Source: a virus. Taken from it: DNA of 64,000 bases. A program made the translations under genes and the position numbers. The number at the start of each line of letters is the position of its first letter. Positions within the stretch are counted from its first letter, which is position 1. The notes beneath the pieces were generated by a model. That model was given only the letters and a program-made list of their open reading frames with translations, was not told where the DNA came from and ran no database searches. Shown here in pieces: positions 27,010-50,515 of this stretch. The stretch lies in IMG/VR virus record IMGVR_UViG_3300028581_000014, positions 78,050 through 142,049 of that record; one strand, given 5' to 3'.

Positions 27010-28275
27010 ATGAAAAAATTAAGAGTCTTAGTAGTCCCTAGTGACAGAACTGGCGTTAGCCATTTTCGCAGTACAAACCCACATTTAGCGTTGGAAAATA
27101 ACTATCCAGATGAGTTTCATGTGGATATTGATTATGAACCAGAATTAGATAATGATGCTTGGTTAAAACAATATGATATAATTCATTATCATAGAACACT
27201 AGGACCATATCAAAATATGAAGGCCCTATTGGCTAGGCTAAAGGCTTTAAATATAGTTACGATAATGGATATTGATGATTATTGGGAGCCTGGAAAACAT
27301 CACCCAGCATATGAACTAATTAAATCAAGTGGACTAGACGCTATGATTAAAGCTAATATAGTATTAGCTGAGAACGTAACAACTACCACACCAATATTTG
27401 CTGATGAAATAAAGCCACTGAATAAGAATGTTTTTGTTCTACCAAATGCAATTAATCCAAAGGAAGAACAATTTACACCTAAGTTGGAACCTTCAGATAA
27501 AATACGTATTGGATGGTTAGGTGGTTCCAGTCATAGATATGATTTAGAAATTCTAAACGGCTTGGTATCTAAATTACAAACAGCTGGTCTACTCGATAAG
27601 ATACAATTTGTATTATGTGGCTTCGATACTAGAGGTTCACATACAACCATCGACCCAGTTACGAAACAACAAACCGTTAGACCCATAACACCAAAAGAAA
27701 GTGTTTGGTATACATATGAGCGTATCTTCACTGATGACTATAGAATAGTTAGTCCAGAGTATAAGGAATATCTAATGAAGTTTACTCAAGAGGAATATCC
27801 AAATGTTCATAATGAACCATATCGTAGAGTTTGGACCAAACACATATCAACATATGCGACTAATTATAATCTATTTGATATATCACTAGCACCAATCGAA
27901 GAACATATTTTTAATAAATGTAAGAGTCAATTAAAGGTAATTGAAGCTGGTTTTCATAATAAAGCAATCATTGCCCAAAACTATGGCCCATATCAAATTG
28001 ATTTAACCAATGCTATCGAATATGGTGGTGTTTTTAATGATGAGGCTACTGGTATCTTGATTGATACGAGCAAGAATCATAGTGATTGGTTTAATGCCAT
28101 TAAGAAGCTTGTTAAGAACCCAGAAATGATTGGAATTCTACAAAATAACCTTTCTACTAAGATTAAGGATATTTATTCAATAGATAACGTTACTAAACAG
28201 AGAAAAGAACTGTATCAAAGCTTGGTTAGTGAGATGCAAAGTAAAAAAGAATTAGAGTATGCAAAAGAAAACTAA
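27010..28275 (+). CDS. GT-B glycosyltransferase
   Basis: 421 residues. The two-domain GT-B plan is visible: an N-terminal Rossmann half (LRVLVVPSDRTGVSHFRSTN, IIHYHRTLG, IVTIMDIDDYW) and a C-terminal half typical of GT4 (VLPNAINPKE, RIGWLGGSSHRYDLEI, then LAPIEEHIFNKCKSQLKVIE, where the family has its nucleotide-sugar Glu region). It would transfer a sugar from an NDP-sugar to an unknown acceptor. It is the first gene of the long plus-strand run after the terminator at 26936, and overlaps the next gene by 17 bases. Confidence 0.8.
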   Translation: MKKLRVLVVPSDRTGVSHFRSTNPHLALENNYPDEFHVDIDYEPELDNDAWLKQYDIIHYHRTLGPYQNMKALLARLKALNIVTIMDIDDYWEPGKHHPAYELIKSSGLDAMIKANIVLAENVTTTTPIFADEIKPLNKNVFVLPNAINPKEEQFTPKLEPSDKIRIGWLGGSSHRYDLEILNGLVSKLQTAGLLDKIQFVLCGFDTRGSHTTIDPVTKQQTVRPITPKESVWYTYERIFTDDYRIVSPEYKEYLMKFTQEEYPNVHNEPYRRVWTKHISTYATNYNLFDISLAPIEEHIFNKCKSQLKVIEAGFHNKAIIAQNYGPYQIDLTNAIEYGGVFNDEATGILIDTSKNHSDWFNAIKKLVKNPEMIGILQNNLSTKIKDIYSIDNVTKQRKELYQSLVSEMQSKKELEYAKEN

Positions 28276-28936
28276 AAATAATAATTTTTGGGTAAAGCTA
28301 TATGTATTTTATCTAAGTATTAAAAGTAGATTTTTTATTGAACCTTATCTTAGGTACAAAGAAAATACATCTAAAGCCAAAAAACAAAAGGAATATATAC
28401 GTGGTTTTAATTCTCTTACTGGTGTAGATTACACTAGAGTATTATCTATAATGGATAAAGATAAAAATAGACCAGATAATTATTATGAACATATAAATGA
28501 AGAATTAACAAAGCATCGTAAATTGATGCAATCTCAAAAATTTAGCTATACACCAAAATTTTATGAGCCAGAGATTATTGACATACATAATGAAAACTTA
28601 AATCCAAATGCGCCAAGTCTTTTGGAATTGATATACAAGGAAGAACTAAATGGTTTAAAACAATTGTATAAACAGGAACGGGACCTTGGGTATCATCCAC
28701 GAAGTTGTTATGCACCTTCATCTAAAACTGAAGACGTAGCAATAAAAGCTGCTAAGGTTGAAAGCTTCAATGATTTAGAAACCAAAATAAATAACATTCT
28801 TAAATTGGAACATGAATTATCATATATGTCTAAATTTATACCTATAATTGGGGTTGCTGGTACCAAAAATGAGATTAAACCAATTAAAAAAAGTTGGTAT
28901 AAACCTATGGGTAATTTATTTAAAAATAAATCTTAA
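28259..28936 (+). CDS. Hypothetical basic protein
   Basis: 225 residues, Lys-rich, with an N-terminal amphipathic segment (FWVKLYVFYLSIKSRFFI, about residues 10-27) that may touch a membrane. The rest is helical with a central charged region; the end FIPIIGVAGTKNE echoes YGIIGVAGTKQVP in the glycosyltransferase at 31159, probably by chance. No family recognised. Translationally coupled to the preceding glycosyltransferase. Confidence 0.55.
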   Translation: MQKKTKNNNFWVKLYVFYLSIKSRFFIEPYLRYKENTSKAKKQKEYIRGFNSLTGVDYTRVLSIMDKDKNRPDNYYEHINEELTKHRKLMQSQKFSYTPKFYEPEIIDIHNENLNPNAPSLLELIYKEELNGLKQLYKQERDLGYHPRSCYAPSSKTEDVAIKAAKVESFNDLETKINNILKLEHELSYMSKFIPIIGVAGTKNEIKPIKKSWYKPMGNLFKNKS

Positions 28937-28943
28937 ATCTGAC

Positions 28944-28974
28944 TTGTTAGTTTGAAAAATTTGTAGTAGCTTTG
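28944..28974 (+). promoter_or_regulatory. Host-type promoter of the HD/dUTPase operon
   Basis: TTG (28944-28946), exactly 20 bases, TAGCTTTG (28967-28974). The ATG is 34 bases downstream. Expected to act early. Confidence 0.7.
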
Positions 28975-29008
28975 TAACTATATAACGAGTTATAATAAAA
29001 AAATACAA

Positions 29009-29572
29009 ATGGCATTAGACCAAACTAAGATTGTCGCTAACACAAAGAAATATTTTGATACAGCGATAAAGAACGGGTTCATGAACGATGAACTAATGAC
29101 CTTCCTAGGTGAAGATTTTATAAAGGCACCAGCCTCATCAATGACAGAATATCATAATGCTTTTGAAGGTGGTCTAGTTGACCACCTTTTAAGGGTTGCA
29201 TCGTATGCTGTTAAAATAAACAATGCCTTACCAGAAGAAGATAGAGTTGACCAAACATCTTTATTAAAGGTATGTTTATTACACGGCATTGGTAAAGCAA
29301 AGCTATATGTACCATGCAAATCTGAATGGCATCGTAAAAACTTAGGTAAGATGTATGAGTTTAATGAGGATATCACATCTATGCGTGTTAGTGAACGTAG
29401 TGCTTATTATGTATTATCACATGGTATTACACTAACCGATGAAGAATATGCCGCTATTTTATTCTTCGATAAGACTGACGACAAGATGTCAGAATACCAT
29501 AACTCAATGGTTGGCGAATTACTTAAGATGGGTAATGTATTAGCAATCAAAAACGCTCAAAAAAATAATTAA
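29009..29572 (+). CDS. HD-domain protein with altered metal site
   Basis: 187 residues resembling HD-type phosphohydrolases. The first metal His is in GGLVDHLLRVA (H59); the hallmark HD pair reads LLHGIGKA, with Gly93 in place of Asp after H92. A single A-to-G change at 29286 would explain it. Asp is normally essential, so the enzyme may be inactive, use other ligands, or bind nucleotide without hydrolysis. Nearby dUTPase and GMP-reductase-type genes suggest nucleotide work. The stop overlaps the dUTPase start by one base, and a host-type promoter precedes the gene. Confidence 0.65.
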   Translation: MALDQTKIVANTKKYFDTAIKNGFMNDELMTFLGEDFIKAPASSMTEYHNAFEGGLVDHLLRVASYAVKINNALPEEDRVDQTSLLKVCLLHGIGKAKLYVPCKSEWHRKNLGKMYEFNEDITSMRVSERSAYYVLSHGITLTDEEYAAILFFDKTDDKMSEYHNSMVGELLKMGNVLAIKNAQKNN

Positions 29573-30147
29573 TGGATACCATCGAAAAAATGAGGTTAAG
29601 AATCCAAGAGATTGCTGACCCAAATAATCCATATTCTCAAGAAGATTTTGACGTTGAGTTTTCAAGCAAAAATTTTACACATGATACCTCTACTTACAAG
29701 ATAAGTGTTGGTTTTAAGAATGAATCAGATAACCAAGACCCAGAATACGCAACCTCTGGGTCTTCTGGTTTTGATTTAAGGGCCAATACCCAAACACCAA
29801 TCATCCTCAAGGCTGGTAATCGAGCCATTATACCAACAGGTTTGTATTTTGAACTACCAGATAACTTTGAGTTACAAATACGACCACGCAGCGGTCTAGC
29901 CGCTAAGAATGGTGTAACAGTGTTAAACACACCAGGTACCGTTGACGCTGATTATCGTGGTGAAGTTAAGGTGATTTTAATTAATCTATCCACTGAAGAT
30001 TTCGTTATAAATCATGGCGATAGAATCGCACAAGGTGTACTAGCAACCGTAACTAGTAAGAATGTTATTAATTTACTAAAACGAGATAATATCTCATCAA
30101 ACACTGAACGTGGTTCAGGTGGCTTTGGTTCAACAGGTATATCATAA
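29572..30147 (+). CDS. dut: dUTP diphosphatase (dUTPase)
   Basis: 191 residues. All five trimeric dUTPase motifs are present: I SSGFDLRA, II RPRSGLAAKNG, III TVDADYRGEVKV, IV GDRIAQ and V RGSGGFGSTG. It hydrolyses dUTP to dUMP and pyrophosphate, keeping uracil out of DNA and feeding dTMP synthesis. The ~50 N-terminal residues before motif I are additional to the compact ~140-residue enzymes. It is coupled to the HD gene through a TAATG overlap, followed after 16 bases by the GMP reductase-type gene. Confidence 0.93.
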   Translation: MDTIEKMRLRIQEIADPNNPYSQEDFDVEFSSKNFTHDTSTYKISVGFKNESDNQDPEYATSGSSGFDLRANTQTPIILKAGNRAIIPTGLYFELPDNFELQIRPRSGLAAKNGVTVLNTPGTVDADYRGEVKVILINLSTEDFVINHGDRIAQGVLATVTSKNVINLLKRDNISSNTERGSGGFGSTGIS

Positions 30148-30163
30148 TAAAAACAAATAATAT

Positions 30164-31159
30164 ATGGAAAAATTAGATTTTGATGACTTATTAATTGAGC
30201 CAGCTAGTGCAACATCTATAGAGAGTCGTAAAGCTTGTTGGTTATACCAAGACGCTGGGTATTTACCCTTGATTACAGCACCAATGGATACTGTAATTGA
30301 TAATGAAAATATGGGGGTATTTGATGATTTGGATATAATCACTTGCTTACCTAGAGGTCTTAAAAACCCAAATGGTTTTGAGTCTTATTCATTAAAGGAA
30401 TTTAATGATGAATTTCTTAATTCTAATCTTAGAACGAATGGTAAATACCTAATCGATATAGCTAATGGACATATGACCAGTCTATGTGAAACCATCCAAG
30501 TGATTAAAAAACATCACCCTACGATGACTATAATGGCTGGAAATATTGCTAATCCATCAACGTATATTGCATTATCAAATGCTGGTGCTGATTATGTTAG
30601 ATGTGGTATTGGAAATGGTGCTGGTTGTTCGACCACATTACAAACTGGTGTTGGTTACCCAATGGCCTCGCTTATATCTGAATGTTATGAAGCATCATTG
30701 AGCTTAGATAAACCAGCATTAATAGTAGCTGACGGTGGTATGCAAAAATACGCTGATATTATTAAAGCCTTAGCGTTAGGTGCTGATTATGTTATGGTTG
30801 GTAGTCTTTTTAATAAGGCTATTGAATCTTGTGGTGATAACTACTTATGGGGTAAGATTAAGGTGTCACAACATATAGCTGAGTTAGCTTACGCTTCAAA
30901 GATACCCGTATATAAAAAATTCCGTGGTATGTCAACCAAAGAAGTCCAAAAAAAATGGGGCAAGGAAACCTTGACAACTTCAGAAGGTGTTATTAGATTT
31001 AGAAAGGTTGAATATACCTTAGCTGGATGGACAAGAAACTTCAAAGATTATCTAAGTTCTGCTATGAGCTATACCAACTCAGATAATTTATCTTACTTTA
31101 TTGGTCAAGTAAAATTAAATAGAATAACAAATAACGCATATAATAGATTTAAGAAATAA
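30164..31159 (+). CDS. IMP dehydrogenase/GMP reductase family protein
   Basis: 331 residues, a TIM barrel without the CBS module of IMPDH. It begins LDFDDLLIEPA (the family's YDDVLL-type start), has LITAPMDTV, and the loop GIGNGAGCSTTLQTGVGYP carries the catalytic Cys (family form G-x-G-S-x-C-T-T). Phosphate-binding segments VADGGMQKYADIIKAL and DYVMVGSLF follow. The length (~330) suits GMP reductase (~345), which converts GMP to IMP, but the IMPDH direction cannot be excluded from the sequence. It may rebalance purine pools during replication. It overlaps the next gene by one base. Confidence 0.85.
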   Translation: MEKLDFDDLLIEPASATSIESRKACWLYQDAGYLPLITAPMDTVIDNENMGVFDDLDIITCLPRGLKNPNGFESYSLKEFNDEFLNSNLRTNGKYLIDIANGHMTSLCETIQVIKKHHPTMTIMAGNIANPSTYIALSNAGADYVRCGIGNGAGCSTTLQTGVGYPMASLISECYEASLSLDKPALIVADGGMQKYADIIKALALGADYVMVGSLFNKAIESCGDNYLWGKIKVSQHIAELAYASKIPVYKKFRGMSTKEVQKKWGKETLTTSEGVIRFRKVEYTLAGWTRNFKDYLSSAMSYTNSDNLSYFIGQVKLNRITNNAYNRFKK

Positions 31160-32802
31160 TGATATCAATAATATACTGCACAAGAGAAACCAATCCAGAA
31201 CACAAGGCTCATTTAGCTAAGACATGTGGTCTAGATAAACATCTTGAAATCATTGAGATAGTTAATAATGGTGAGAGCCTAACAAGTGCGTATAATCGTG
31301 GCTTAAAACAAGCCAAGAATGATATCGTTGTTTTTTGTCACGATGATTTAAGTATTGAAACTAAGCAATGGGGTACCAAGCTTATTAAGCTATTTAAAAA
31401 CAATCCAGAATACGGTATAATTGGGGTTGCTGGAACCAAGCAAGTACCATCAAGTGGAATTTGGTGGGAAAACCCTAGAAAGATGTACGGGCGTGTTTCA
31501 CACACACATGAGGGTAAGACTTGGTTATCATCTTATTCTGATGACTTGGGTCATGAAATTGAAGAAACGGTAATCGTTGATGGTGTATTTTTTGCTATTG
31601 ATAAATCCAGAATCAAAAAAACCTTTAACGAGGACGTACAAGGCTTCCATTTTTATGACCTTACCTTTTGTTATGAAAACCATTTGGAGGGCGTTAAGGT
31701 GGGTGTTACGACCTTAATACGGATAAATCACAGGTCTATTGGTGCGACAAATGAAGAATGGGAAAAAAATAGAGCACAATTTAGTGAATCTTTTAAAGAA
31801 ACCCTACCAAAAGAAATTAAGAGAGTATTACGTAAGGGTGAAAAATTAAGGGTATTAATTGGTTGTTTAAATTTTACCAATCTAACTGGTTCTGAACTAT
31901 ATGTTTACGAATTGGCTAAGCAATTGGTTAAAGAGGGTTGTGAGGTAACTATATGTTCAAACATAGGTAAGCCGATGTTAGATATGGTAAAGCCACTTGG
32001 TATAAAGCTATATTCACTACAAGAACCACCTAACTATAAGCTAGGTGATGGTAAATGGTTATTAAAGACACAAAATGGTGATGTTGTATCGCAAGAGAAT
32101 ACATTATATCGTATTGGTAATACCACGTTTGATGTAATGCATTTAAATCATAAACCAATAACCGAGCATCTATTAAGGTTATTTCCAGAGGTTCCAGCTA
32201 TTTGTACAATACATTCTGAGGTTATCGCTTTGGAGGAACCCGTAGTATCCCCACAAATAAAGAAATACCTAGCAATTAGACCTGAGATTAAGGACCATAT
32301 AGTTAAGCGATATGGTATAACTGAGGATATTGTTAGCGTTATTTACAATCCAATAGATAACACTAAGTTTAAATCAGTACCATCGGTAAAAAAACGAGAT
32401 AAAAAACGTGTATTATTTGTTGGTACGATTGACTATTTGCGTAAGAATTCAATCAATAATTTGATACAAAAAACTGCTGATAATAATCAAGAACTCTGGT
32501 TGGTTGGTCAATATAACGGTGTTACGGAATCTGAATTAAATATGGGGCCACACGTAAGTTATTTTCCACCAACATCTAGTATTGAAAAATATATACAAGA
32601 ATGTGATGAAACTGCTGGTATACTATTAGGTAGAACAACCATTGAAGGTTGGATGTGTGGTAAGAAAGGGTGGATATATGATGTTGACTCATCTGGTACA
32701 ATACTTAGCAGTTCATTACATGATGTTCCGACAGATATAGATAAATTTTATGCCAATAATGTAGTCAAAGAAATAATAGAAGAATATAAATCAATATTGT
32801 AA
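31159..32802 (+). CDS. Two-domain glycosyltransferase (GT2-like plus GT-B)
   Basis: 547 residues. Residues 1-225 look like a GT-A domain: SIIYCTRETNP, ESLTSAYNRGLKQAKNDIVV and FCHDDLSIE, where HDD takes the place of the DxD metal motif. From about residue 230 a GT-B domain begins (LRVLIGCLNFTNLTGSELYV), with a donor half containing VIYNPIDNTKFK, RVLFVGTIDYLRKN and ILLGRTTIEGWMCGKKG. One polypeptide thus carries two transferase modules, which may add two consecutive sugars. It overlaps its neighbours by one base on each side. Confidence 0.75.
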   Translation: MISIIYCTRETNPEHKAHLAKTCGLDKHLEIIEIVNNGESLTSAYNRGLKQAKNDIVVFCHDDLSIETKQWGTKLIKLFKNNPEYGIIGVAGTKQVPSSGIWWENPRKMYGRVSHTHEGKTWLSSYSDDLGHEIEETVIVDGVFFAIDKSRIKKTFNEDVQGFHFYDLTFCYENHLEGVKVGVTTLIRINHRSIGATNEEWEKNRAQFSESFKETLPKEIKRVLRKGEKLRVLIGCLNFTNLTGSELYVYELAKQLVKEGCEVTICSNIGKPMLDMVKPLGIKLYSLQEPPNYKLGDGKWLLKTQNGDVVSQENTLYRIGNTTFDVMHLNHKPITEHLLRLFPEVPAICTIHSEVIALEEPVVSPQIKKYLAIRPEIKDHIVKRYGITEDIVSVIYNPIDNTKFKSVPSVKKRDKKRVLFVGTIDYLRKNSINNLIQKTADNNQELWLVGQYNGVTESELNMGPHVSYFPPTSSIEKYIQECDETAGILLGRTTIEGWMCGKKGWIYDVDSSGTILSSSLHDVPTDIDKFYANNVVKEIIEEYKSIL

Positions 32803-33788
32803 TGAGTAGCATTAAGGAATGGTTACGGAGTAAAGTGGCTTCAGTATTTATATCATTATCTAACGTAGAGAAGAATACTATAACGCAAGGTTCTGACCAA
32901 GTAAGTAATGATACACACTACACTAGAAGGAATACGCAGGGTACCTTAGCTGATTCGTTAATCAATGGTGAGGTTACCCAAGAAGTACAAAACTTGCGTT
33001 GGAGAACCTATAATATATTGAATCAAGTTTCTGGGTATAAGTCCAAAGTAGTTGGTTATGATGAAGATGGCCTACCAGTAACTGAAATGGTTAAATTAGA
33101 TGTGAGCAAAGAACTAGATAATATTAAATTAGATACTGCTGATTCTTATGTATTAGAGATGGTTGTCGATAATTCTGAAATTACCAACAATACTAATGAT
33201 ATAATGTTTGGTAAACATTTATTGGTATATGATACCCCTAAGATTATGTTTGGTGAGCTTAACACTAGTGACGATAAAATACCAGAGGCTGTTGAAAAAT
33301 TTGCGTCACATGGTACAATTAATGACACCGAATACCATGCAATTAATAAAACAGAAAAACCATTATTTGTTGGTCGTGACTTTTTTCCTAAGTTTAATAT
33401 TGAAGATTACACAACCAAATTAAATATTAGAAGAATTGATGAAGAACATAGACTACTAGAATTTTATGTTAGTAAGTACCCAGATACCCATAGGAAGAAC
33501 TCTGGGTTATTCATTAAAGAAGTAACAAAGGCAATAGCTAATCCAACCCACATTAACTTTTTAGAGATAAAAAATGTATCATTTGTTACTGATAATACGA
33601 TTGGTGCTAGTAACTACTTAAGATTTACTTATGATATACTTAAGTTTGACAAGATAGTTGAATTTAATGGCTCTTACGTTATTAAATTTATCGGCAAGGT
33701 AAGCATTAATGGGGTAAATATCTTTGAAGAATTTAGGGTTACTGAGCTGGATGATAAATATAAAAATAAAGAAACCAAGAATCGATGA
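32802..33788 (+). CDS. Hypothetical protein, possibly structural
   Basis: 328 residues. I do not recognise it. The N-terminus is helical (IKEWLRSKVASVFISLSNVE), followed by HYTRRNTQGTLADSLINGEV and a Trp-containing helix, then a mixed alpha/beta body (KPLFVGRDFFPKF, RLLEFYVSKYPD). It has no transferase signs although it is embedded between glycosyltransferase genes with 1- and 4-base overlaps. It could be a virion component that the surrounding enzymes act on, or an unrelated gene in the same transcript. Confidence 0.55.
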   Translation: MSSIKEWLRSKVASVFISLSNVEKNTITQGSDQVSNDTHYTRRNTQGTLADSLINGEVTQEVQNLRWRTYNILNQVSGYKSKVVGYDEDGLPVTEMVKLDVSKELDNIKLDTADSYVLEMVVDNSEITNNTNDIMFGKHLLVYDTPKIMFGELNTSDDKIPEAVEKFASHGTINDTEYHAINKTEKPLFVGRDFFPKFNIEDYTTKLNIRRIDEEHRLLEFYVSKYPDTHRKNSGLFIKEVTKAIANPTHINFLEIKNVSFVTDNTIGASNYLRFTYDILKFDKIVEFNGSYVIKFIGKVSINGVNIFEEFRVTELDDKYKNKETKNR

Positions 33789-34444
33789 AACTACTAATAA
33801 AATTTCCAACTAGAAATAGACCACATAAATTCTTAAAGACTTTGCACACTTACATGCGTCATCTTTATGATAAAGATACTGAAATAATTGTAAGCTGTGA
33901 CCTAGATGATACATCAATGTCTGAGTCTTATATAATAGATTTCGTCAGTCAATACCCAAATGTTAAGTTACATTATAGTAACAATAAATCAAAGATTGAA
34001 GCGGTAAATGCTGATTTAACAGATGTTGATTTTGATATTTTATTATTGGCTTCTGATGATATGATTCCAATAATACAAGATTTTGATGTAATAATTAAAA
34101 ATAAAATGATTGAACACTACCCAGATACCGATGGTGTTTTATGGTTTAACGATGGTTACCAAGGCAATCGACTAAATACACTCTGTATCTTAGGTAAAAA
34201 ATACTATGATAGATTTAATTATATTTATAACCCAGAATATATTAGTGTATGGTCTGATAATGAATTTATGGATGTTGCCAATATATTAGGTAAACAAACT
34301 TACTTTGATGATGTAATTATACAACACCAACATCCAGATTGGGGTCATGGTACGCACGATGTCATACATACATTAAATAATAAGTATGGAGTACACGATA
34401 AAAAAATTTATGAAAATAGGCGAAATAATAATTTTTATTTATGA
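33785..34444 (+). CDS. GT-A fold glycosyltransferase-like protein
   Basis: 219 residues. The start (LLIKFPTRNRPHKFLKTLHT) and the acid pairs in IIVSCDLDDTS and LLLASDDMIP fit a small GT-A (GT2-like) domain; the latter is the likely DxD-type metal site. The C-terminal half has HQHPDWGHGTHD, a His-rich motif seen in related transferases. The acceptor is unknown. ATGA overlaps join it to both neighbours, the first of a series of such junctions. Confidence 0.65.
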   Translation: MKLLIKFPTRNRPHKFLKTLHTYMRHLYDKDTEIIVSCDLDDTSMSESYIIDFVSQYPNVKLHYSNNKSKIEAVNADLTDVDFDILLLASDDMIPIIQDFDVIIKNKMIEHYPDTDGVLWFNDGYQGNRLNTLCILGKKYYDRFNYIYNPEYISVWSDNEFMDVANILGKQTYFDDVIIQHQHPDWGHGTHDVIHTLNNKYGVHDKKIYENRRNNNFYL

Positions 34445-35271
34445 AGACGGCATTCAATACAATGTTAAAAAATGAAGCTAATATACTACCTGTTATATTA
34501 GAAATATGGAAAAAATATCCAATAGATTTATTTATATTTTATGACGATAATTCAACTGATGAATCGGTTAAATTAATACGTGAAATTTTAGGTGAGGGTA
34601 GATATATAGTAATAAATGATAAATTAACCTTTTTTAACGAATCACATAATCGACAACGAATGATTGATATCTCTAGAGACAATAACGTTGATATTGTTTT
34701 TTCTATTGATTGTGACGAATTGTTGTCAACAACAATTGTGGATAACTTTACTAATTTTTTAAAAATCTACAATACACATGATATGTTTTTATTTTGGTAT
34801 AATAGTGTTAACAATACAATAACTGAATATCGAACAGACCCACAATATATAAATAATTATCGAAGTTTTATATTACCGCTGAATAAAACGGGTAACTTAG
34901 ACACTAGTCAATTTAAATACCACACACCAAGAACACCAAATGTTAATTTGCCCAAGATGTACAACAATGATTTTGGTATAATACATTTACAAGCACTTAA
35001 CACTAAATATTACGCTATAAAACAGTTATGGTATAAACATCATGAATTTGTCAATTATGGACATAGTGTTGAATTTATTAATTCAAGATATGATTCGGTT
35101 GTTAATAACTTGAATTTTAATGCAAAAAAAATTGACAATAGATTAATAGAGGGTATTAATATTGACGTAAATATTTTTGAAGGATTGGAAAATGAAAAAG
35201 GTTACCTAAAATTTATTCAGGATAACTACAATGAAAAATTAATAACATTTGGTAAAGAATTTTTAATATGA
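34441..35271 (+). CDS. GT2-like glycosyltransferase
   Basis: 276 residues. It opens like enzymes of the glycosyltransferase family 2/92 group: TMLKNEANILPVILEIWKKY, then FIFYDDNSTDESVKLIREI and a DxD-type FSIDCDELL. The middle contains YRSFILPLNKTGN and PRTPNVNLPKMYN, and a His-Leu segment near the end of the domain (FGIIHLQAL) is typical of the same group. The product probably uses an NDP-sugar with a divalent metal. Both ends overlap neighbours by four bases. Confidence 0.7.
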   Translation: MKTAFNTMLKNEANILPVILEIWKKYPIDLFIFYDDNSTDESVKLIREILGEGRYIVINDKLTFFNESHNRQRMIDISRDNNVDIVFSIDCDELLSTTIVDNFTNFLKIYNTHDMFLFWYNSVNNTITEYRTDPQYINNYRSFILPLNKTGNLDTSQFKYHTPRTPNVNLPKMYNNDFGIIHLQALNTKYYAIKQLWYKHHEFVNYGHSVEFINSRYDSVVNNLNFNAKKIDNRLIEGINIDVNIFEGLENEKGYLKFIQDNYNEKLITFGKEFLI

Positions 35272-42829: not shown

Positions 42830-43287
42830 AATTAATATCACATAGAGGTAATATTATCGGCCCTAATCCGATTAGAGAAAATTCACCGTCATATATTGAT
42901 ACTGCAATATCTGCTGGATATGAGGTTGAAGTGGATATAAATTTTACAAACGGTAAATTTTATCTAGGTCATGACACACCAGATTATGAAATTAGTGAAA
43001 GGTGGATTGCATCTCGTAAAGATAAATTATGGTTTCATTGTAAAAATCTAGAAGCAGCCACTAAAATTAGTGTCTTAGGGGATGGCTATAAATTCTTTTG
43101 TCATACTTCAGACCCATTTGTTTTAACTAGTAATAAATATGTTTGGGTCCATGATTTAAATATGAATTTATGTGATAGGTGTATAATACCTCTTCTTAAT
43201 GCCAACGATATTAAAAACTATAATGGTAAAATAATTTATGCTGTATGTACTGATTACATAACACTATTAAAATACAAATTAAAATAA
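42826..43287 (+). CDS. Glycerophosphodiester phosphodiesterase-like protein, short
   Basis: 153 residues against ~240 for common GDPD enzymes. The catalytic start is preserved: LISHRGN with the key His, ENSPSYIDTAISAGYEVEVD with the Glu/Asp metal ligands, and YLGHDTPDY. The C-terminal barrel strands are partly missing, so it may be a trimmed, still active form, since such short relatives recur in polysaccharide loci. The target could be a phosphodiester within the glycan or its lipid carrier. Confidence 0.72.
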   Translation: MKLISHRGNIIGPNPIRENSPSYIDTAISAGYEVEVDINFTNGKFYLGHDTPDYEISERWIASRKDKLWFHCKNLEAATKISVLGDGYKFFCHTSDPFVLTSNKYVWVHDLNMNLCDRCIIPLLNANDIKNYNGKIIYAVCTDYITLLKYKLK

Positions 43288-43296: not shown

Positions 43297-43941
43297 ATGT
43301 TTAATAATACAAACCCAGAAACAAATGGAGAAAGAAGATTCTTCAACTCAATTAAACAAAATTGTACATTGATATTCGATGTTGGTGCTAGTGATGATTC
43401 AATATTTCTTAATGATAAAATAGAGATTCATTATTTTGAACCTTTAAAACGTAATTTAGATAATTTAAAATTAAAAGAAAATAAAAATATAAACCCAAAA
43501 TTTAATTATTTTGGGTTAAGTGATATAGAAGAAACTCTTAAATATTATGATAATCATGGTTCATTAATAAATAGGAGTGAAAAGTTTAGTAGAACACCTA
43601 GTTATTATTCTGGTATTGATGTCTTAGTGAAAAGAGCTGATGAATATGTGAATAATAATAACATTACTAAAATAAGTTTTCTTAAATTAGATGTTGAAGG
43701 ATATGAATTAAAAGTATTAAAAGGTTTTGGTGATAAATTAAAAATAGTAGACTATATTCAATTTGAATATGGTTCTGGAACAGCTGATGCTGATTGTACA
43801 ATGCTTGAGTTAATTAATTATTTAAAAGGGTTTGGTTTTACTGATTTTTCGTATTTAAGTGACGATGGGTTAGTACCGATAAATGATTTTTCAGACCATT
43901 GGTCTTTTTGTAATATAATGTGTGTTAATTCAAAAAAATAA
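43297..43941 (+). CDS. FkbM-family methyltransferase
   Basis: 214 residues. FkbM features: LIFDVGASDDSIFL (SAM loop), IHYFEPLKRNLDNL, RADEYVNNNNITKISFLKLD leading into VEGYELKVLKGFGD, and YIQFEYG. These enzymes O-methylate sugars or polyketides. Together with the TylF-type enzyme, the locus carries two different methyltransferases. Nine bases separate it from the preceding gene and it overlaps the next by one base. Confidence 0.82.
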   Translation: MFNNTNPETNGERRFFNSIKQNCTLIFDVGASDDSIFLNDKIEIHYFEPLKRNLDNLKLKENKNINPKFNYFGLSDIEETLKYYDNHGSLINRSEKFSRTPSYYSGIDVLVKRADEYVNNNNITKISFLKLDVEGYELKVLKGFGDKLKIVDYIQFEYGSGTADADCTMLELINYLKGFGFTDFSYLSDDGLVPINDFSDHWSFCNIMCVNSKK

Positions 43942-45026
43942 TGATAATAGATAATATTATATTTAAAAGTCGATTAGATAAATATTTTAATGGTGAATTT
44001 AATTTACACTCAGAACCAATGTTGACATTGGTTCCAAATATAACAATATATGATGACTATAAATCTAAAAGTGAGGTTAAGTCATTTAATGATGTTAAAT
44101 TTAGAATTGAACCAGAAGGACCACAATCTTTTACAGTTCATCAAATAGGTGTTTGTGGTAATCAAATAATAAATATAACACATAAAATGTTGTCTTATTT
44201 CACATTAGTAAATAATAATTGGACATATGGGCATAATGAAATAAATAAAATTTACAATAATATACAAAATTCATCTATATTTGAGATGGTTGATGAAGAA
44301 GTTTTTCAGTTTTTTGATTGTTTTCCATACGCACCAGTACATAATCTAGACGATACATACAACTTATTATATTCTTATGTAAAAAGTGGGTTGACATGTA
44401 AATTATTAGTCTTGAAAACAGATAATTATTATTATAATCAAACTATTAATTCACTTAAAGAATATTTTAATCTTGAATATTTTTATTTAGAACCACATAA
44501 AAATTATAAATTTAAAAAATTTAACTGCGTTAGACAATATCATTGGATTCAAAATGACGCATTAAGTTTTATACATGATAATTACATAAAAAAAATATGT
44601 AATAAAATAATAGATAAACCAACATATGATAATATATGTTTAATAAAAACTGTTCACCCAACTAACACATCAACTGTTGATACCTTTAATATCACAAATA
44701 ATTTTTCTAATATTTTAAAAGAAAAAAATATTTTTAATTTAGATAATATTAGAGATGATTTAGAATATAAAATATATCTTGTAAATAATGCTAAAAATAT
44801 TATAATATCGTATTTATCCCCATTCAATGTTAATATTCATAAACATTGTGTTAAAACAGATGATAAGAATTTTATAATATTAAACGGTGGTTACGGTGGT
44901 TCAATAATACCACATTTTACTAAATTATTAGATAACAAATATAATTTTTACGGTAGAGAAATTAACGGTGTTTTAATAGATAACAAAATATCCTTGGATG
45001 ATTTGAATTCCTTTATAAATTTTTAA
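43941..45026 (+). CDS. Hypothetical protein of the glycan cluster, possibly GT61-like
   Basis: 361 residues, very rich in Asn, Ile, Tyr and Lys. A loose resemblance to the GT61 protein at 36011 is seen in overall order (an ICLIKTVHPTNTST strand, YKIYLVNNAKNIIISYLSP, and a late Gly-rich NGGYGGSIIPHF), but the IGxxGG-type signature is not convincing. It may be an acceptor-specific transferase or an accessory protein. It overlaps the FkbM gene and ends two bases before the nucleotidyltransferase. Confidence 0.5.
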   Translation: MIIDNIIFKSRLDKYFNGEFNLHSEPMLTLVPNITIYDDYKSKSEVKSFNDVKFRIEPEGPQSFTVHQIGVCGNQIINITHKMLSYFTLVNNNWTYGHNEINKIYNNIQNSSIFEMVDEEVFQFFDCFPYAPVHNLDDTYNLLYSYVKSGLTCKLLVLKTDNYYYNQTINSLKEYFNLEYFYLEPHKNYKFKKFNCVRQYHWIQNDALSFIHDNYIKKICNKIIDKPTYDNICLIKTVHPTNTSTVDTFNITNNFSNILKEKNIFNLDNIRDDLEYKIYLVNNAKNIIISYLSPFNVNIHKHCVKTDDKNFIILNGGYGGSIIPHFTKLLDNKYNFYGREINGVLIDNKISLDDLNSFINF

Positions 45027-45028
45027 TA

Positions 45029-46594
45029 ATGAAAAAACCACAATTAATAATTCCAATGTCTGGAATTGGTAAACGTTTTATAGATGCTGGGTACGATGTA
45101 CCAAAGCCCTTAATTGAAGTTGATGGTATACCAATAATAGAGCACGTTGTTAATCTATTCGATAGACCAGACGATGTAATTTTCATATGTAACGAAGTAC
45201 ACTTAATAGATACCAACATGATTGAGATACTTAAACGTATTTCACCTAATTGTAAAATATATCCAGTCCCAAATGCAAATAGACGTGGGCCAGTGGATGC
45301 TGTTACCCAGATTTTTGATAAAATAGATGATGATAAAGAAATTATTTTTAGCTATTGTGATTATGGTACCGAATGGGATTATAAAAAATTCCTAAAGGAA
45401 ACTAGAGAAAATAATTCAGATGGCGCAATACCATGTTACACTGGATTTCATCCGCATATGTTAGGTAATGATAATTATGCTTTTGTTAAGTGTGATGGTA
45501 ATCGAGCGTTGGATATTCAAGAAAAGAAACCATTTACAAACGATAAAATGAGTGAACGTGCGTCAAATGGTACTTACTACTTTAAAAATGGTAAAATTGT
45601 TAAAAAATACTTTAAAGAATTAATTGATAAAAATATTAATATTAATGGAGAATATTATATTAGTTTAGTTTATAAATTATTAATAAACGATAATAAACTA
45701 GTTACAACATTTTTAATAGATAAGATGTTACAATGGGGTACACCATATGATTTGGAAAACTATAATACATGGTTAGATTATTTCATAAGTGTTAAAAATG
45801 AACAACCAAAAATAGAAAATCCAGCAAATACAACACTTATACTACCAATGGCTGGTAAGGGTAGTAGGTTTAATGAAGATGGTTACGAACTACCTAAACC
45901 AATGTTAGATGTCATGGGTAAACCAATGATTATTCAAGCGGTTAATTGTTTGCCGAAGTCAGAAAAAAGTATTTTTATTTGTTTAGATGAACACATAAAA
46001 AAATTTAGTATTGATACCATACTAATCGATACCTACAAAAACACTAATATTGTCTCAATAAAAGAGACAACTGAAGGTCAAGCTTGTACATGTGATATAG
46101 GTATAAAAACACATAATGTTAACCTAGAAAATCCAATAATGATTTCAGCCTGTGATAATGGTGTATATTATGATACTAAAGAATATTTAAAACTAATTGA
46201 AGATGACAGCATTGATGTAATTGTTTGGTCATTTAGAAATAATCAAGCTAGTAAAGTAAATCCAAATGCGTATGCTTGGTTAGATGTTGATGACGAAGGA
46301 ATTATAAAACATGTATCGTGTAAGAATTTTATATATGATAACCCATTAACTACCCACGCAATAATTGGTACTATGTTTTTTAGAAAGGGTAAATATTTTA
46401 TTGATGGTTTTAACGCTAATCTAATGGAAAATGTTAGAACAAACGGTGAATTTTATGTTGATGATGTTTTAAACCAAAATATAAAAGCTGGTTTAAAAGT
46501 TAAAGTTTTTGAGGTAAAACACTACATTTGTTGGGGTACACCTAATGACTATAAAACGTATAACTATTGGAATGAGCACTTTAATTTATTTTAA
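45029..46594 (+). CDS. Duplicated sugar nucleotidyltransferase (two NTP_transferase domains)
   Basis: 521 residues made of two similar halves. Half 1 (residues ~3-245) opens LIIPMSGIGKRFIDAGYDVP with KPLIEVDGIPIIEHV; half 2 (~268-520) opens LILPMAGKGSRFNEDGYELP with KPMLDVMGKPMIIQAV. Both contain the GxG-x-RF...PKP nucleotide loop and late motifs such as WGTPYDL and WGTPNDY. NTP_transferase proteins join NTP and sugar-1-phosphate into NDP-sugar donors. The two halves are diverged, so they may activate two different sugars. It closes the tightly spaced cluster. Confidence 0.82.
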   Translation: MKKPQLIIPMSGIGKRFIDAGYDVPKPLIEVDGIPIIEHVVNLFDRPDDVIFICNEVHLIDTNMIEILKRISPNCKIYPVPNANRRGPVDAVTQIFDKIDDDKEIIFSYCDYGTEWDYKKFLKETRENNSDGAIPCYTGFHPHMLGNDNYAFVKCDGNRALDIQEKKPFTNDKMSERASNGTYYFKNGKIVKKYFKELIDKNININGEYYISLVYKLLINDNKLVTTFLIDKMLQWGTPYDLENYNTWLDYFISVKNEQPKIENPANTTLILPMAGKGSRFNEDGYELPKPMLDVMGKPMIIQAVNCLPKSEKSIFICLDEHIKKFSIDTILIDTYKNTNIVSIKETTEGQACTCDIGIKTHNVNLENPIMISACDNGVYYDTKEYLKLIEDDSIDVIVWSFRNNQASKVNPNAYAWLDVDDEGIIKHVSCKNFIYDNPLTTHAIIGTMFFRKGKYFIDGFNANLMENVRTNGEFYVDDVLNQNIKAGLKVKVFEVKHYICWGTPNDYKTYNYWNEHFNLF

Positions 46595-46653: not shown

Positions 46654-46666
46654 TATTAAACAATTT

Positions 46667-47512
46667 ATGCAAAAAAAACCAGTCGCTAGGCGTACTACAT
46701 CAACCACTGAAACACCTAAAAGAACTAGGACCAAAGTAAGTACTGATAAAAATGTGGATATTATATCATTGATAAAGTTAGATATCAAGCATAAAAACGA
46801 AACACAAAAAAAGCTCTCCTTATCGATTAAAGAAAATGATGTTACCGTATGTACAGGTTCCGCTGGTACTGGTAAGACATACATCAGCGTTTTTGAAGCA
46901 TTATTATTATTAAAAAACAACTCAGACACGTATCGTGAAATAAAGTTGGTCAAATCAATAACACAATTAAAGAATGAAGACATCGGTACACTACCAGGTG
47001 ATGCGGTAGAAAAAATGAAATTCCATATGATGTCTTACCTTGATGCATTTTATAAGCTAATAGGTGAAGAATTAACCACCAAGCTTATCGATGCTGGGTA
47101 CATTAAATTTGAGGTATTTGGGGCCATTAGAGGTAGGTCATTTAGCAATGCGATAATTCTAGTAGATGAGTTCCAAAACATAAGCCATGATAACGCTAAG
47201 ACGTTCCTAACTAGGTTTGGTGATAATACCAAGATTATCATATTAGGTGATAGCGGTCAAATAGATATTCGAAATAAGAACGAAAGCTCATTAGAGCGAT
47301 TATCTAAAAGGGTTCAACTTAAACCCATTGATGGTGTTGGTGTTGTAGAATTTAGCGATGCCGATATAGTTAGACATAGATTAACTAGTTATTTTATTGA
47401 TATATTTGATGAGTCGGATAACGTTAAACCAATCAACAAGCCAAAGGTAGAAAATACCCCAAAATCAAATAAAGATTCTTTTTTTGTTCGTGGCTTAGAT
47501 TTTTTTAGATAA
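46667..47512 (+). CDS. phoH: PhoH-like P-loop ATPase
   Basis: 281 residues. A basic Thr/Arg-rich N-terminus (residues 1-30) precedes the PhoH ATPase domain with Walker A GSAGTGKT and Walker B AIILVDEFQN, followed by KTFLTRFGDNTKIIILGDSG. PhoH homologues are widespread in large phages; their role is not settled, though RNA unwinding or RNA metabolism is suggested. A late-type box lies upstream, so it starts a new transcript after the glycan cluster. Confidence 0.88.
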   Translation: MQKKPVARRTTSTTETPKRTRTKVSTDKNVDIISLIKLDIKHKNETQKKLSLSIKENDVTVCTGSAGTGKTYISVFEALLLLKNNSDTYREIKLVKSITQLKNEDIGTLPGDAVEKMKFHMMSYLDAFYKLIGEELTTKLIDAGYIKFEVFGAIRGRSFSNAIILVDEFQNISHDNAKTFLTRFGDNTKIIILGDSGQIDIRNKNESSLERLSKRVQLKPIDGVGVVEFSDADIVRHRLTSYFIDIFDESDNVKPINKPKVENTPKSNKDSFFVRGLDFFR

Positions 47513-47561
47513 AATACAATCTTTTACTTTACTTATCATATTCCTTTATTAAGTTTGGAAT

Positions 47562-48170
47562 ATGAAAATAAATATATCACTAAATGAGGTATTAAGGGAC
47601 TTTATCAGTCAATTTATTTATACCTATGATAAGTATATAAGTCAAATTGATATTAAAGCAAACGATGTAACTAGTTTTGACTTATTAGATACTTTTAAAT
47701 TTGAGTCTATTGATAGACTAAATAGCTTCCTATATCTAGAGGCACCATTAGAAATTTTTGGTCATGCTGACCAAACATATAATGGATTAATGAATGAGTT
47801 CAATCAATTTTTAATGGATATAGAAGACGATGGTGACCATCAAATATCATTGGTCAGTCGTGAAGTTAATAAAGCCATTCCAGCAACATTATTTTTCTTG
47901 TCTAAGACTGGTTGCCGTGCATCAAATATTTCATTTGTTAAAAAACATGAAGATGAATGGAATTATACTGATGTATTAATTACGGCCAACCCAAAAAGCC
48001 TAGCAGCTAAGCCAGATGGTAAGATAAGTGTTAAGGTTAAAACACCGTATAACACTGATGCTAATGCTGACTACGAGATAGAATCAATCTTAGATTTTAT
48101 CAATGATGAAGAACTTAGGGATAAAATCCTAACAAAAATAATAACAACAACTTACGAAGAAATTAACTAA
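47562..48170 (+). CDS. Hypothetical protein
   Basis: 202 residues, starting MKINISLNEVLRDFISQFIY. It is an acidic alpha/beta protein with a strand-rich second half (VLITANPKSLAAKP, DGKISVKVKTPYNTD). I do not recognise a family with confidence. Two short-spaced genes follow (one and four bases), so the three products belong to one operon with the glycosyltransferase at 48536. Confidence 0.6.
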   Translation: MKINISLNEVLRDFISQFIYTYDKYISQIDIKANDVTSFDLLDTFKFESIDRLNSFLYLEAPLEIFGHADQTYNGLMNEFNQFLMDIEDDGDHQISLVSREVNKAIPATLFFLSKTGCRASNISFVKKHEDEWNYTDVLITANPKSLAAKPDGKISVKVKTPYNTDANADYEIESILDFINDEELRDKILTKIITTTYEEIN

Positions 48171-48171
48171 T

Positions 48172-48531
48172 ATGATAGATTTCGGTGGAATTATCTACTA
48201 TCTTGATTTAGATGAATTATCTAAATTTACAACGATTAACCCAAACGGTGAAGAATACCGTGTTACAACTAAGACCAAAACAAAACACTATAATGGTGGT
48301 GATGTTCATTATTATGATGTAATTGAAACCAAAACCCCAAAGGTTACAGAAGTAGATATAACAAAATATGAGTTTATACGGATGATGATTGAGACCTTAT
48401 TAGATGGGATTTATGAAGAAGAAGAAACTGACCTAGGTGCAGATAGGGCTTTATCAAAAAAACCACTAGCTTATCAATTAGCATTTAATACCCTATACCA
48501 TTATAATATTTTAAAAGAAAAAGAACTTTAA
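48172..48531 (+). CDS. Hypothetical protein
   Basis: 119 residues. It starts IDFGGIIYYLDLDELSKFTT, followed by a Lys/Thr-rich beta hairpin (VTTKTKTKHYNGGDVHYYDV) and a helical acidic C-terminus (EFIRMMIETLLDGIYEEEE). Not recognised. One base follows the preceding stop; it is probably a partner of the 47562 product. Confidence 0.6.
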   Translation: MIDFGGIIYYLDLDELSKFTTINPNGEEYRVTTKTKTKHYNGGDVHYYDVIETKTPKVTEVDITKYEFIRMMIETLLDGIYEEEETDLGADRALSKKPLAYQLAFNTLYHYNILKEKEL

Positions 48532-48535
48532 TACA

Positions 48536-49699
48536 ATGCAATCAAACAAAAAACAATTTGAAGACCAATTACAACAAGGTAAAAATGTAATTGAAAAACT
48601 AGGTAATAAGGATTTTACAATCTATTACTTTACCTTAGATACAAAGGGTAATCCAACAGCTGGTATTGCTAATATTTATGAACATGTAAAAATGTTAAAC
48701 GAATTAGGTTATAAGGCTGTGATTTTGCATGAGAAAAATGACTACAAGTTAGTCGGTGACGAAAATAGTTATGGTATTAAAGAATGGTTGGGTGAGGAAT
48801 ACGCTATGCTACCTCACGCATCAATCGAAAAACAAGAACTTAATATTGGCCCAGCTGATATTATTGTTATACCAGAAATCTTTGCTAATATCATGGACCA
48901 GATTAAAGCCTTCCCATGTAAGAAAGTGGTTTTATCACAAAGCTACAATTATTTGTTGGAATTATTACCACTGGGTAAAAGATGGAATGTGGACTACGGT
49001 TTCTATGACGTTATTACAACAAGTGTAAAGCAAGCTAGATACCTAACTACACTATTCCCATCAATTAGGACACATATCGTACCTGTGTCGATTGCAGACT
49101 ACTTTAAACCTAATGTCAAGCCTAAGCAACCTATCGTATCAATTCTATCTAGAAACCAAAATGATGCGGCTAAGATTGTTAAGGCATTTTACTTAGAATA
49201 TCCAATTTACAAATGGGTTACATTTAAAGAACTTAGAGGCTTACCTAAAAAACAATTTGCTGAGCAATTAAGCAAATCTTGTCTAGCGGTATGGGTTGAT
49301 GACGAAGCTGGCTTCGGCACATTCCCATTGGAAGCAATGGAATCAAATACACCAGTAATCGGTAAGATACCTAATATGGTTCCAGAATGGATGGAAGGAA
49401 CTGACGGTGATGGTCAACCAGTTATCAAAAATAATGGCGTTTGGACCAACACAACAATTAATCTTCCAGAATTAATTGCAACTTATATGAAGCTATGGTT
49501 TGAGGATTCAATTCCTAGTGACCTACTTAATAGTATAGAAAGCTCTAAGGGTCAATACACTACTGAGATGCAAAAAGAAAAGCTTGCGTTGGTTTACCAA
49601 ACACTAGTTGATAATAGAGTATCAGAAATGACTCAAATTGTGGATAGCTTAGCATCACAATTGGTAGAAATTGCTGAAGAAACAACAAAAAATGCATAA
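48536..49699 (+). CDS. GT-B glycosyltransferase
   Basis: 387 residues. N-terminal half: FTIYYFTLDTKGNPTAGIAN, ADIIVIPEIFANIM. C-terminal donor half: RTHIVPVSIADYFKP, KQPIVSILSRNQNDAAKIVK, then CLAVWVDDEAGFGTFPLEAM and ESNTPVIGKIPNMVPEWM, in which GFGTFPLEAM is the Glu-containing nucleotide-sugar motif of GT4-type enzymes. This copy has more balanced codon use than the 34-45 kb transferases and may be an older resident of the genome. Confidence 0.8.
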   Translation: MQSNKKQFEDQLQQGKNVIEKLGNKDFTIYYFTLDTKGNPTAGIANIYEHVKMLNELGYKAVILHEKNDYKLVGDENSYGIKEWLGEEYAMLPHASIEKQELNIGPADIIVIPEIFANIMDQIKAFPCKKVVLSQSYNYLLELLPLGKRWNVDYGFYDVITTSVKQARYLTTLFPSIRTHIVPVSIADYFKPNVKPKQPIVSILSRNQNDAAKIVKAFYLEYPIYKWVTFKELRGLPKKQFAEQLSKSCLAVWVDDEAGFGTFPLEAMESNTPVIGKIPNMVPEWMEGTDGDGQPVIKNNGVWTNTTINLPELIATYMKLWFEDSIPSDLLNSIESSKGQYTTEMQKEKLALVYQTLVDNRVSEMTQIVDSLASQLVEIAEETTKNA

Positions 49700-49723
49700 A
49701 AATAATACAATAAAATATACAAA

Positions 49724-50515
49724 ATGTCTAATATATCAATAATAATTCCAGTTCACGAATTGGATGAAACAACAAAGGTAACATTAACAAATGCAATTAC
49801 TAGCGTTAAAGAGCAAGTAGTAAGACCATCAGAACTAATTATTGTAGTTCCGAAGGGAAGTGATGCAGCATCATATATTAAAGATTATGACTTTGGCGAT
49901 TTAGCTACATCAGTAGTAATTGCTGAAAATGAAGGTGCTACAGATTTTGCAACACAATTTAATTATGGTGTTAAGGTAGCTAAATCAGAATGGGTTAGTC
50001 TATTGGAATATGATGATGAATTAGCTAAGATATGGCTTAAGAATGTTGTGGAATATCGTACAGCATATCCAGATGTTGCCATCTTTATGCCAATCGTTGT
50101 AGACGTGGACCAAAACAATCAATTTAACGGCTTTACAAACGAAGCTGTATGGGCGCAAAACTTTTCAGATGAGTTAGGTATCTTAGATAATAACGCTTTG
50201 TTAATGTACCAAAACTTTAACGTTGATGGATTTGTAATGAAAAAATCAACATATGAAGAATTTGGCGGTTTCAAAAGCAATATACCGCTAACATTCATTT
50301 ATGAATTCTTGCTTCGTATGACGTTCTTATCTCTTAAGACAATGGTTATACCTAAATTTGGTTACAAACATGTTAACTTAAGACCTAATTCATTATTTTC
50401 TAATTATAAAAATACTCTATCTCCATTAGATGCAAAATGGTGGTTGGCTCAAGCTAAAAAAGAATATTTCTTTGTTAAAGATAGAGTGATAACAAAAGTA
50501 CAAGAAACTGTATAA
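49724..50515 (+). CDS. GT2 glycosyltransferase
   Basis: 263 residues. The start is classical for family 2 (ISIIIPVHELDETTKVTLTN, ITSVKEQVVRPSELIIVV), followed by ATDFATQFNYGVKVAKSEWV and a metal site in LLEYDDELAK. The C-terminal part YEEFGGFKSNIPLTFIYEFL is the usual acceptor-side segment. Its stop overlaps the sigma factor start by one base, so its expression is tied to that of the late transcription factor. Confidence 0.8.
   Translation: MSNISIIIPVHELDETTKVTLTNAITSVKEQVVRPSELIIVVPKGSDAASYIKDYDFGDLATSVVIAENEGATDFATQFNYGVKVAKSEWVSLLEYDDELAKIWLKNVVEYRTAYPDVAIFMPIVVDVDQNNQFNGFTNEAVWAQNFSDELGILDNNALLMYQNFNVDGFVMKKSTYEEFGGFKSNIPLTFIYEFLLRMTFLSLKTMVIPKFGYKHVNLRPNSLFSNYKNTLSPLDAKWWLAQAKKEYFFVKDRVITKVQETV

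Follow-up and report, generated by a model that had tools for sequence, protein, structure and literature searches.

A conserved five-gene module with a predicted phosphoribulokinase-type kinase in a phage glycan locus, and its counterparts in cyanophages and bacteria

The viral DNA analyzed here, called the window in what follows, is the final 64 kb (bases 78050 to 142049) of the 142,049-base IMG/VR virus record IMGVR_UViG_3300028581_000014, a record that may be incomplete. It contains a glycan locus whose core, between positions 33785 and 46594, consists of 15 open reading frames (ORFs), all on the plus strand, and not of the thirteen genes counted in the initial annotation. Ten of the 14 junctions in the core are overlaps of 4 bases (seven) or 1 base (three), the remainder being −13, +27, +9, and +2, which bears out the earlier description of a large, tightly coupled locus. 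With a run of glycosyltransferase genes and sugar-nucleotide genes in a phage genome, the window matches the description of a phage lipopolysaccharide (LPS)/glycan gene cluster. Five genes of the core form the module considered here: KIN (39670 to 41127), in which a GT-A-fold domain (residues ~1 to 217) is fused to a phosphoribulokinase (PRK) fold (residues ~218 to 485; kinase family match, 1.5e-36, and folds); ALD (41880 to 42539), a class II aldolase (PF00596, 1.3e-23); HAD (42536 to 42829), an EcbF/BcbF-type phosphatase; GDP (42826 to 43287), a short GDPD-like TIM barrel; and NT2 (45029 to 46594), a double sugar-phosphate nucleotidyltransferase (PF00483, 2.4e-15) with an IspD-like second half.

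A scan of IMG/VR with NT2 returned 44 viral loci with 35 distinct NT2 sequences, and 42 of them were examined for gene order after L009 and L010, copies of the same phage, had been set aside. In all 36 loci that hold the five genes (30 distinct NT2 sequences), KIN, ALD, HAD, GDP, and NT2 stand in the identical order and on the identical strand, and the synteny in related phages that the initial annotation had proposed to look for is thus present. The other six loci are incomplete; five are cut by contig ends, and one, L030, is without the aldolase. The PRK domain (PF00485) is found over the cutoff in the window record and in 39 of the 44 other module-bearing records, the five misses being cut at contig ends. 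The genes around the module vary: relatives of the GT61 gene occur in 31, of 37222 in 26, of 38022 in 13, and of 43941 in 3 of the 44 viral loci. Transferases that change around an unchanging activation core would be expected of a locus that varies a glycan. For large-genome cyanophages and their LPS clusters, the accessible part of a 2010 survey considers the possibility of nonfunctional stuffer DNA (PMC3037559). Extended to the present locus, this idea has to face open frames, invariant motifs, and one gene order throughout the complete loci, and we give it almost no credence.

The structural model of KIN, built from 21 sequences, has a mean pLDDT of 85.5 and a pTM of 0.70. In this model, the C-terminal domain (residues ~218 to 485) is a PRK fold (Z = 25.0 [VIA]; 261 aligned residues; 2.7 Å; Foldseek, 1.2e-18), and residues 1 to ~220 adopt a GT-A fold (COLGALT1, Z = 13.5; BoGT6a, Z = 13.2); the formation of ribulose-1,5-bisphosphate (RuBP) is a predicted activity. 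The P-loop Gly/Lys, Asp253, His256, and Arg260 (window numbering) are invariant in all 40 phage rows and all 34 bacterial rows (29 plus five overlooked by the first pattern); Arg353 and Arg358 are both present in all 40 phage rows and in 33 of the 34 bacterial rows, the remaining one having a gap. Asp253, His256, Arg260, Arg353, and Arg358 align with functionally important PRK residues. KIN thus shares with the Calvin-cycle PRK both the fold and the active-site pattern of Asp, His, and Arg but differs in being fused to a GT-A domain, in the replacement of the Walker-B Glu, and in a score under the family cutoff. A nucleoside kinase identity was rejected, as uridine kinases reached at best 2.7e-7, compared to 7.8e-36 for PRK. 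The kinase also had matches in four records of the isolated-phage collection, three labeled Salmonella and one a 5.9-kb fecal "Bacteriophage sp."; one of the Salmonella-labeled records was examined and is a chromosomal contig in which the match is prkB, without a surrounding glycan locus.

The fusion could also mean that the kinase phosphorylates the sugar newly added by the fused transferase, while phosphates or phosphodiesters of the glycan would be taken off or altered by HAD and the GDPD-like enzyme. Such a role would suit the GDPD-like proteins as editors of phosphodiesters. It would also suit the fusion partners of the kinase, which are unrelated to each other: phages have a GT-A fold at this place, and bacteria have a membrane domain with several spans. 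However, the invariant residues align with PRK, whose substrate is a small phosphosugar, and the kinase of L043 is a separate ORF; we regard a kinase acting on the glycan as improbable.

The other four module genes are recognizable to different degrees. The motifs HTHP, NHG, and Glu of ALD are present in seven of seven aligned rows, and ALD matches the ribulose-1-phosphate (Ru1P) aldolase model at 2.8e-12, though another model scores best. HAD matches TIGR01689 at 2.3e-8, which is under the cutoff of that model, and PDB entry 9iqw at 3.7e-13. GDP has no Pfam match and was assigned by fold and motifs; HRG, EN, E-x-D, and HD are invariant in 23 rows, and the fold match to 1v8e is modest (E = 8.7e-4, TMq = 0.52, rmsd = 8.3). 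In the PDB, NT2 is closest to 4evw (4e-8), an entry whose function is not named, and it also matches proteins of the 6-deoxy-D-mannoheptose pathway (0.0004).

A related operon is spread over many bacterial phyla. The genome scan gave 44 bacterial loci, short contigs included, of which at least two (L067 and L073) are probably viral and 43 have an NT2 protein match; by gene family, NT2 was counted in 41, GT2 in 36, a kinase-membrane fusion in 34, HAD, class II aldolase, and the GDPD-like gene in 33 each, and GtrA in 23 loci. As in the phages, a PRK-type kinase, HAD, class II aldolase, NT2, and a GDPD-like gene occur together (L053, L059, L096, and others), but the kinase is joined to a membrane domain and not to a GT-A domain, GtrA accompanies just over half of the loci, HAD belongs to another subfamily, and NT2 and the kinase form clades separate from the viral ones. 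The kinase is the C-terminal end of a protein of ~690 residues, the first half of which has 7 to 10 hydrophobic segments in the four proteins examined; this half gives no Pfam match and, by its look, may be a GT-C transferase. ORFs beside the operon in L053, L059, and L096 are polysaccharide-like, judged by eye only. The RuBP 5-phosphatase model NF053830 is the best NCBIfam model for all 11 operon HADs tested (33 found), with E values of 1e-40 to 3e-56 and 140 to 191 bits. Furthermore, in 12 of 12 genomes the top match of this model is, by coordinates, the operon HAD (139 to 194 bits); the best second match has 71 bits, and all 14 control genomes give weak matches.

According to the accessible part of a study on haloarchaea, a HAD-type RuBP phosphatase and a FucA-type Ru1P aldolase are encoded there in one operon, act sequentially, and jointly convert RuBP to dihydroxyacetone phosphate (PMC9700705). 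The likeness lies in this pair of enzymes; as described there, however, the non-carboxylating pentose bisphosphate pathway is catabolic and receives RuBP from R15P isomerase (PMC9700705), whereas the operons considered here have a PRK-type kinase, a nucleotidyltransferase, and glycan genes. The homologies of kinase, HAD, and aldolase therefore point to consecutive steps around RuBP. The phage HAD is unlike the bacterial one, and hence what supports the RuBP step in the phage is the kinase, the superfamily of the aldolase, and analogy.

The explanation we favor, with slightly less than even confidence, is a virus-borne glycan factory in which a conserved KIN-ALD-HAD-GDP-NT2 module for sugar activation, following a pentulose-bisphosphate route, is combined with changing soluble transferases and methyltransferases. 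We infer every reaction, substrate, and acceptor of the following scheme; the genes, their order, folds, conserved motifs, and distribution were observed. The PRK-type domain of KIN would phosphorylate a pentulose phosphate, in the simplest case ribulose-5-phosphate to RuBP, from which the HAD phosphatase would take off one phosphate to give Ru1P, a ketose-1-phosphate on which the class II aldolase may act. NT2 would convert the resulting phosphosugar, or two of them, to nucleotide-linked donors. The GT61 and GT2 enzymes and the GT-A half of KIN may then build the glycan in the cytoplasm, and the TylF- and FkbM-type enzymes would methylate it. The GDPD-like enzyme probably hydrolyzes or edits a phosphodiester intermediate, and the glycan could be attached either to a virion protein or to a precursor of the host envelope.

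Several observations weigh against this scheme. The position of the Walker-B Glu, which is usual in PRK, is occupied by Cys in 38 and Ser in 2 of the 40 phage rows and by Glu in only 8 of the 34 bacterial rows, and KIN scores 187.8 bits against NCBIfam PRK07429, under the cutoff of 236. The best NCBIfam model of ALD is L-ribulose-5-phosphate 4-epimerase, and that of the bacterial operon aldolase is a bifunctional aldolase/dehydrogenase. The phage HAD is capsule type, TIGR01689-like, and of a different HAD subfamily from the bacterial operon HAD; NF053830 has no match in the phage record, and the bacterial operon HADs tested are all under its equivalog cutoff of 330 bits. L030 retains kinase, HAD, GDPD-like gene, and NT2, with no aldolase detected. 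Finally, the last steps of the route are guesswork because Ru1P has no evident role as a glycosyl donor.

Part of this evidence suits an ordinary nucleoside diphosphate (NDP)-sugar locus, in which the kinase would act on an aldose phosphate in the manner of the anomeric kinase of the heptose route, and the bisphosphate would be turned by HAD into a sugar-1-phosphate and by NT2 into an NDP-sugar, with no RuBP involved. The GDP-heptose route likewise combines a kinase, a HAD enzyme, and a nucleotidyltransferase, NT2 matches the 6-deoxy-D-mannoheptose pathway proteins, and the phage HAD is of the capsule type (TIGR01689; PDB 9iqw). Such a locus would leave the class II aldolase unexplained, as well as RuBP 5-phosphatase being the best model of 11 of 11 bacterial HADs, and we consider it unlikely.

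The same gene families, without the kinase, are present in cyanophages. In S-SM2 (SSM2_204 to SSM2_208) and Bellamy (gp209 to gp213), NT2, GT61, aldolase, HAD, and the GDPD-like gene lie in one run, with 37 to 66% identity to the window proteins. These LPS/glycan clusters differ from the window in that NT2 comes first in the order and no PRK occurs in either whole record; in S-SM2 and most cyanophage-type loci, a gene of its own encodes a relative of the GT-A domain. The complete cyanophage-type run is also found in L099 to L101, L103, L104, and L067 and, with broken frames, in L105; the 14-kb contig L102 is without aldolase, HAD, and the GDPD-like gene, and L073 ends in NT2. L067 and L073, filed under Planctomycetaceae bacterium TMED10, probably represent viral DNA that was binned with that assembly, as their genes are of the cyanophage type. 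PF00485 is over the cutoff in none of the 12 cyanophage-type records, with one sub-threshold match of 15.7 bits (G002); this tally counts S-SM2 twice (W01 and G001), includes assembly G009 (shared by L067 and L073), and contains several short contigs. Because of the repeated S-SM2 entry, and because the nucleotidyltransferase of S-CAM9 (W03) is a distant one, no more than 10 of the 12 count as separate NT2 carriers; the NT2s of L099, L100, and L104 are nearly identical. The cyanophage marker PF00504 has matches in 10 of 28 records, all ten of them cyanophage type (mostly short and sub-cutoff, three over the cutoff), and no match in the 17 non-cyanophage-type records (16 of the 44 others plus the window record) or in the 14-kb contig G008.

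Cyanobacterial hosts produce their own RuBP, and a supply of it from the host would explain the lack of PRK in cyanophages. This leads to a wider idea that is possible but doubtful, namely, that a Calvin-cycle enzyme type has been recruited to surface glycans, with a glycosyltransferase-fused PRK making RuBP as the start of a new nucleotide-sugar (or nucleotide-ketose) pathway in phages and many bacterial phyla, and with cyanophages having dropped, or never needed, the kinase because the host supplies RuBP. Four points weigh against the favored scheme and its argument from host supply. The cyanophage NT2s form a single clade, and the lack of PRK therefore represents one evolutionary event. Most cyanophage-type loci carry another kinase, PfkB-like (S-SM2 type) or GHMP (Bellamy). 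The cyanobacterium Phormidesmis (L074) retains a fused PRK with the active-site pattern. DSL-LC03 and S-CAM9 have the nucleotidyltransferase, HAD, and GDPD-like genes with no annotated aldolase or PRK nearby; since the aldolase is not annotated there, the cyanophage minimum set may be fewer than five genes.

Among other cyanophages, the 10.6-kb stretch examined of S-SCSM2R contains the aldolase but not the module, and in SynMITS9220M01 the GDPD-like gene adjoins a gene annotated as a kinase. In the isolated-phage collection, NT2 was found in 18 Synechococcus phage records and in one 6.6-kb fecal "Bacteriophage sp." (26% identity), and the GDPD-like gene had 16 matching records, which come exclusively from Synechococcus phages and include several repeat entries of one phage. 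Two cyanophage genes in L002 look mislabeled: the "phosphoheptose isomerase" at 21303 to 21614 is homologous to the EcbF-type HAD of the window, and the "bifunctional heptose 7-phosphate kinase/heptose 1-phosphate adenyltransferase" at 17579 to 18001 has only a cytidylyltransferase-like domain.

The remaining ORFs of the core are mostly transferases and methyltransferases. GT2-like glycosyltransferases are encoded at 33785 to 34444 (phrog_14945, 8.8e-21) and 34441 to 35271 (PF13704, 1.3e-6, above the cutoff), followed by a probable, weakly supported GT2-like transferase at 35268 to 36011 (PF10111, 7.5e-6, just under the cutoff; phrog_29879 galactosyl transferase, 1.1e-7) and a GT61 transferase at 36011 to 37225 (PF04577, 7.4e-17), which has relatives also in S-SM2 and Bellamy. 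The protein at 37222 to 38034 has no convincing family, its only match being DUF2179 (0.0061, sub-cutoff); in the PDB, its profile met nothing beyond a designed protein (0.0096) and a single NF3 chain (0.58, near random). The protein at 38022 to 38780 is weakly rhamnosyltransferase-like (TIGR01556, 0.0021). The next, at 38777 to 39673, has no family match and has relatives in 11 of the 44 viral loci; its profile matched just a designed protein in the PDB (0.72), and a comparison gave no support for membership in the family of 48536. A TylF-type O-methyltransferase lies at 41155 to 41880 (PF05711, 3.4e-17) and an FkbM-type methyltransferase at 43297 to 43941 (PF05050, 5.1e-14). The 361-residue protein at 43941 to 45026, inside the core, again has no convincing family; its single distinct relative among the 44 viral loci is in L016 (58% identity), the others being two copies of the same phage, and an assignment to GT61 was not supported (hhalign probability of 1.3 with a two-row profile). 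Searches likewise gave no convincing family for 28259 and 32802, which makes five such proteins between 27010 and 46594 together with 37222, 38777, and 43941. A viral fold search returned mostly uncharacterized viral proteins, along with some named glycosyltransferase. Altogether, an assignment, if in places a weak one, is available for 12 of the 15 ORFs of the core, and most of the enzyme labels of the initial annotation agree with the family searches, the GDPD-like one with the fold.

Across the possibly incomplete 142-kb record, there was no match to Polysacc_synt (PF01943) for a Wzx flippase, to Wzy_C (PF04932) for a Wzy polymerase, or to GtrA (PF04138), other flippase and polymerase families not having been searched, and a crude hydropathy scan of 25 proteins gave one possible membrane segment, in 35268. 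The earlier remark that no flippase or Wzy-type polymerase is visible is thereby upheld for these families, and with none recognized, assembly in the cytoplasm is the natural inference.

Transferases that the initial annotation had placed outside the core are supported by PHROG, Pfam, or PDB matches. They are a glycosyltransferase at 27010 to 28275 (phrog_7162 glycosyltransferase, 8.6e-40; no Pfam match), a two-domain enzyme with GT2-like and GT4/GT-B-like parts at 31159 to 32802 (PF13712, 7.4e-34; PF13439, 8.3e-13), a glycosyltransferase-like protein at 48536 to 49699 (PDB 8xsg, "Putative glycosyltransferase," 5.7e-13 in a profile search; no Pfam or PHROG match), and a GT2 glycosyltransferase at 49724 to 50515 (PF00535, 9.2e-9), all on the plus strand. 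The position of 48536 and 49724 in a conserved block outside the module would suit DNA hypermodification, in which the transferases decorate phage DNA. We consider this very unlikely; unlike in T4-type DNA glucosylation, which involves hydroxymethylated pyrimidine synthesis, no match to thymidylate synthase/hydroxymethylase (PF00303) was found in the possibly incomplete record, and two O-methyltransferases, a GT61 enzyme, and NDP-sugar synthesis exceed what known DNA glucosylation is understood to need. The block itself (46667 to 51240) consists of PhoH, 47562, 48172, 48536, 49724, and 50515 (weak sigma-70 region 2); it has relatives in 16 to 20 of the 44 viral loci and is not tied to the glycan module.

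The initial annotation had also read the AT-rich core as a hint of recent acquisition. The AT-richness holds, with GC contents of 0.216 to 0.290 per core gene, compared to 0.318 to 0.377 for the five genes directly upstream (29009 to 33788) and 0.300 to 0.348 for the six downstream genes (46667 to 51240); gene 28259, farther upstream, is also low (0.271). However, the same holds for all 16 comparable relatives, in which the core is more AT-rich than the genes adjoining it downstream (median difference, 0.035); comparable loci are those with at least three core and at least four backbone genes, and they include some near copies (L032, L034, L035, and L052). L038, which has one core gene and is outside the 16, has no GC difference. 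Furthermore, in the NT2 tree, one branch (100/99) sets 40 phage and 9 cyanophage rows opposite 24 bacterial rows. The input was ORFs of ~480 to 799 residues, L067 being counted with the cyanophages; split bacterial and truncated NT2s, L105 (broken frames), L073, S-CAM9, L009, and L010 were left out. In the kinase tree, too, the 38 phage rows are set apart from the 28 bacterial ones (99/95). The longest phage branch of this tree is that of L043, a GC-rich (0.43) phage locus with a stand-alone kinase ORF of 202 residues. Because the AT-rich core is of long standing in 16 of 16 relatives and NT2 falls in a separate virus clade, recent acquisition is rejected; as judged from sequence comparison, the module is an old viral possession and not a recent import.

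Elsewhere in the window are phage structural genes for a tail sheath, a tail fibre/baseplate, and major head proteins; the head protein matches include, among those listed, an unannotated metagenomic phage, Flavobacterium phage immuto, Rhodothermus phage RM378, and Microcystis phage Mel-JY01. A second AT-rich stretch (58001 to 60000; GC, 0.238) adjoins a major head protein gene. A dUTPase gene and an IMP dehydrogenase/GMP reductase-type gene (29572 to 31159) lie directly 5′ of the transferase region.

In its accessible part, the 2010 survey reports cyanophage clusters of this sort, S-SM2 included, as LPS genes and does not decide between a functional role and stuffer DNA (PMC3037559). S-SM2 and Bellamy hold NT2, GT61, aldolase, HAD, and the GDPD-like gene, already published, and hence the proposal of an undescribed system is only half right: the same five families stand in published clusters, but our literature search, with subscription journals mostly outside its coverage, found no description of the module, the kinase fusion, or the bacterial operon. 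In sum, a loosely described phage LPS cluster can now be recast as a module of five defined genes whose first substrate is open to experiment. For the glycan genes of cyanophages, left without a settled function in the accessible text of the survey (PMC3037559), this offers a specific chemistry that could be examined in cultured phages, along with a link to a bacterial operon for which no description was found. If RuBP is indeed the precursor, glycan synthesis by cyanophages would be in direct competition with carbon fixation.

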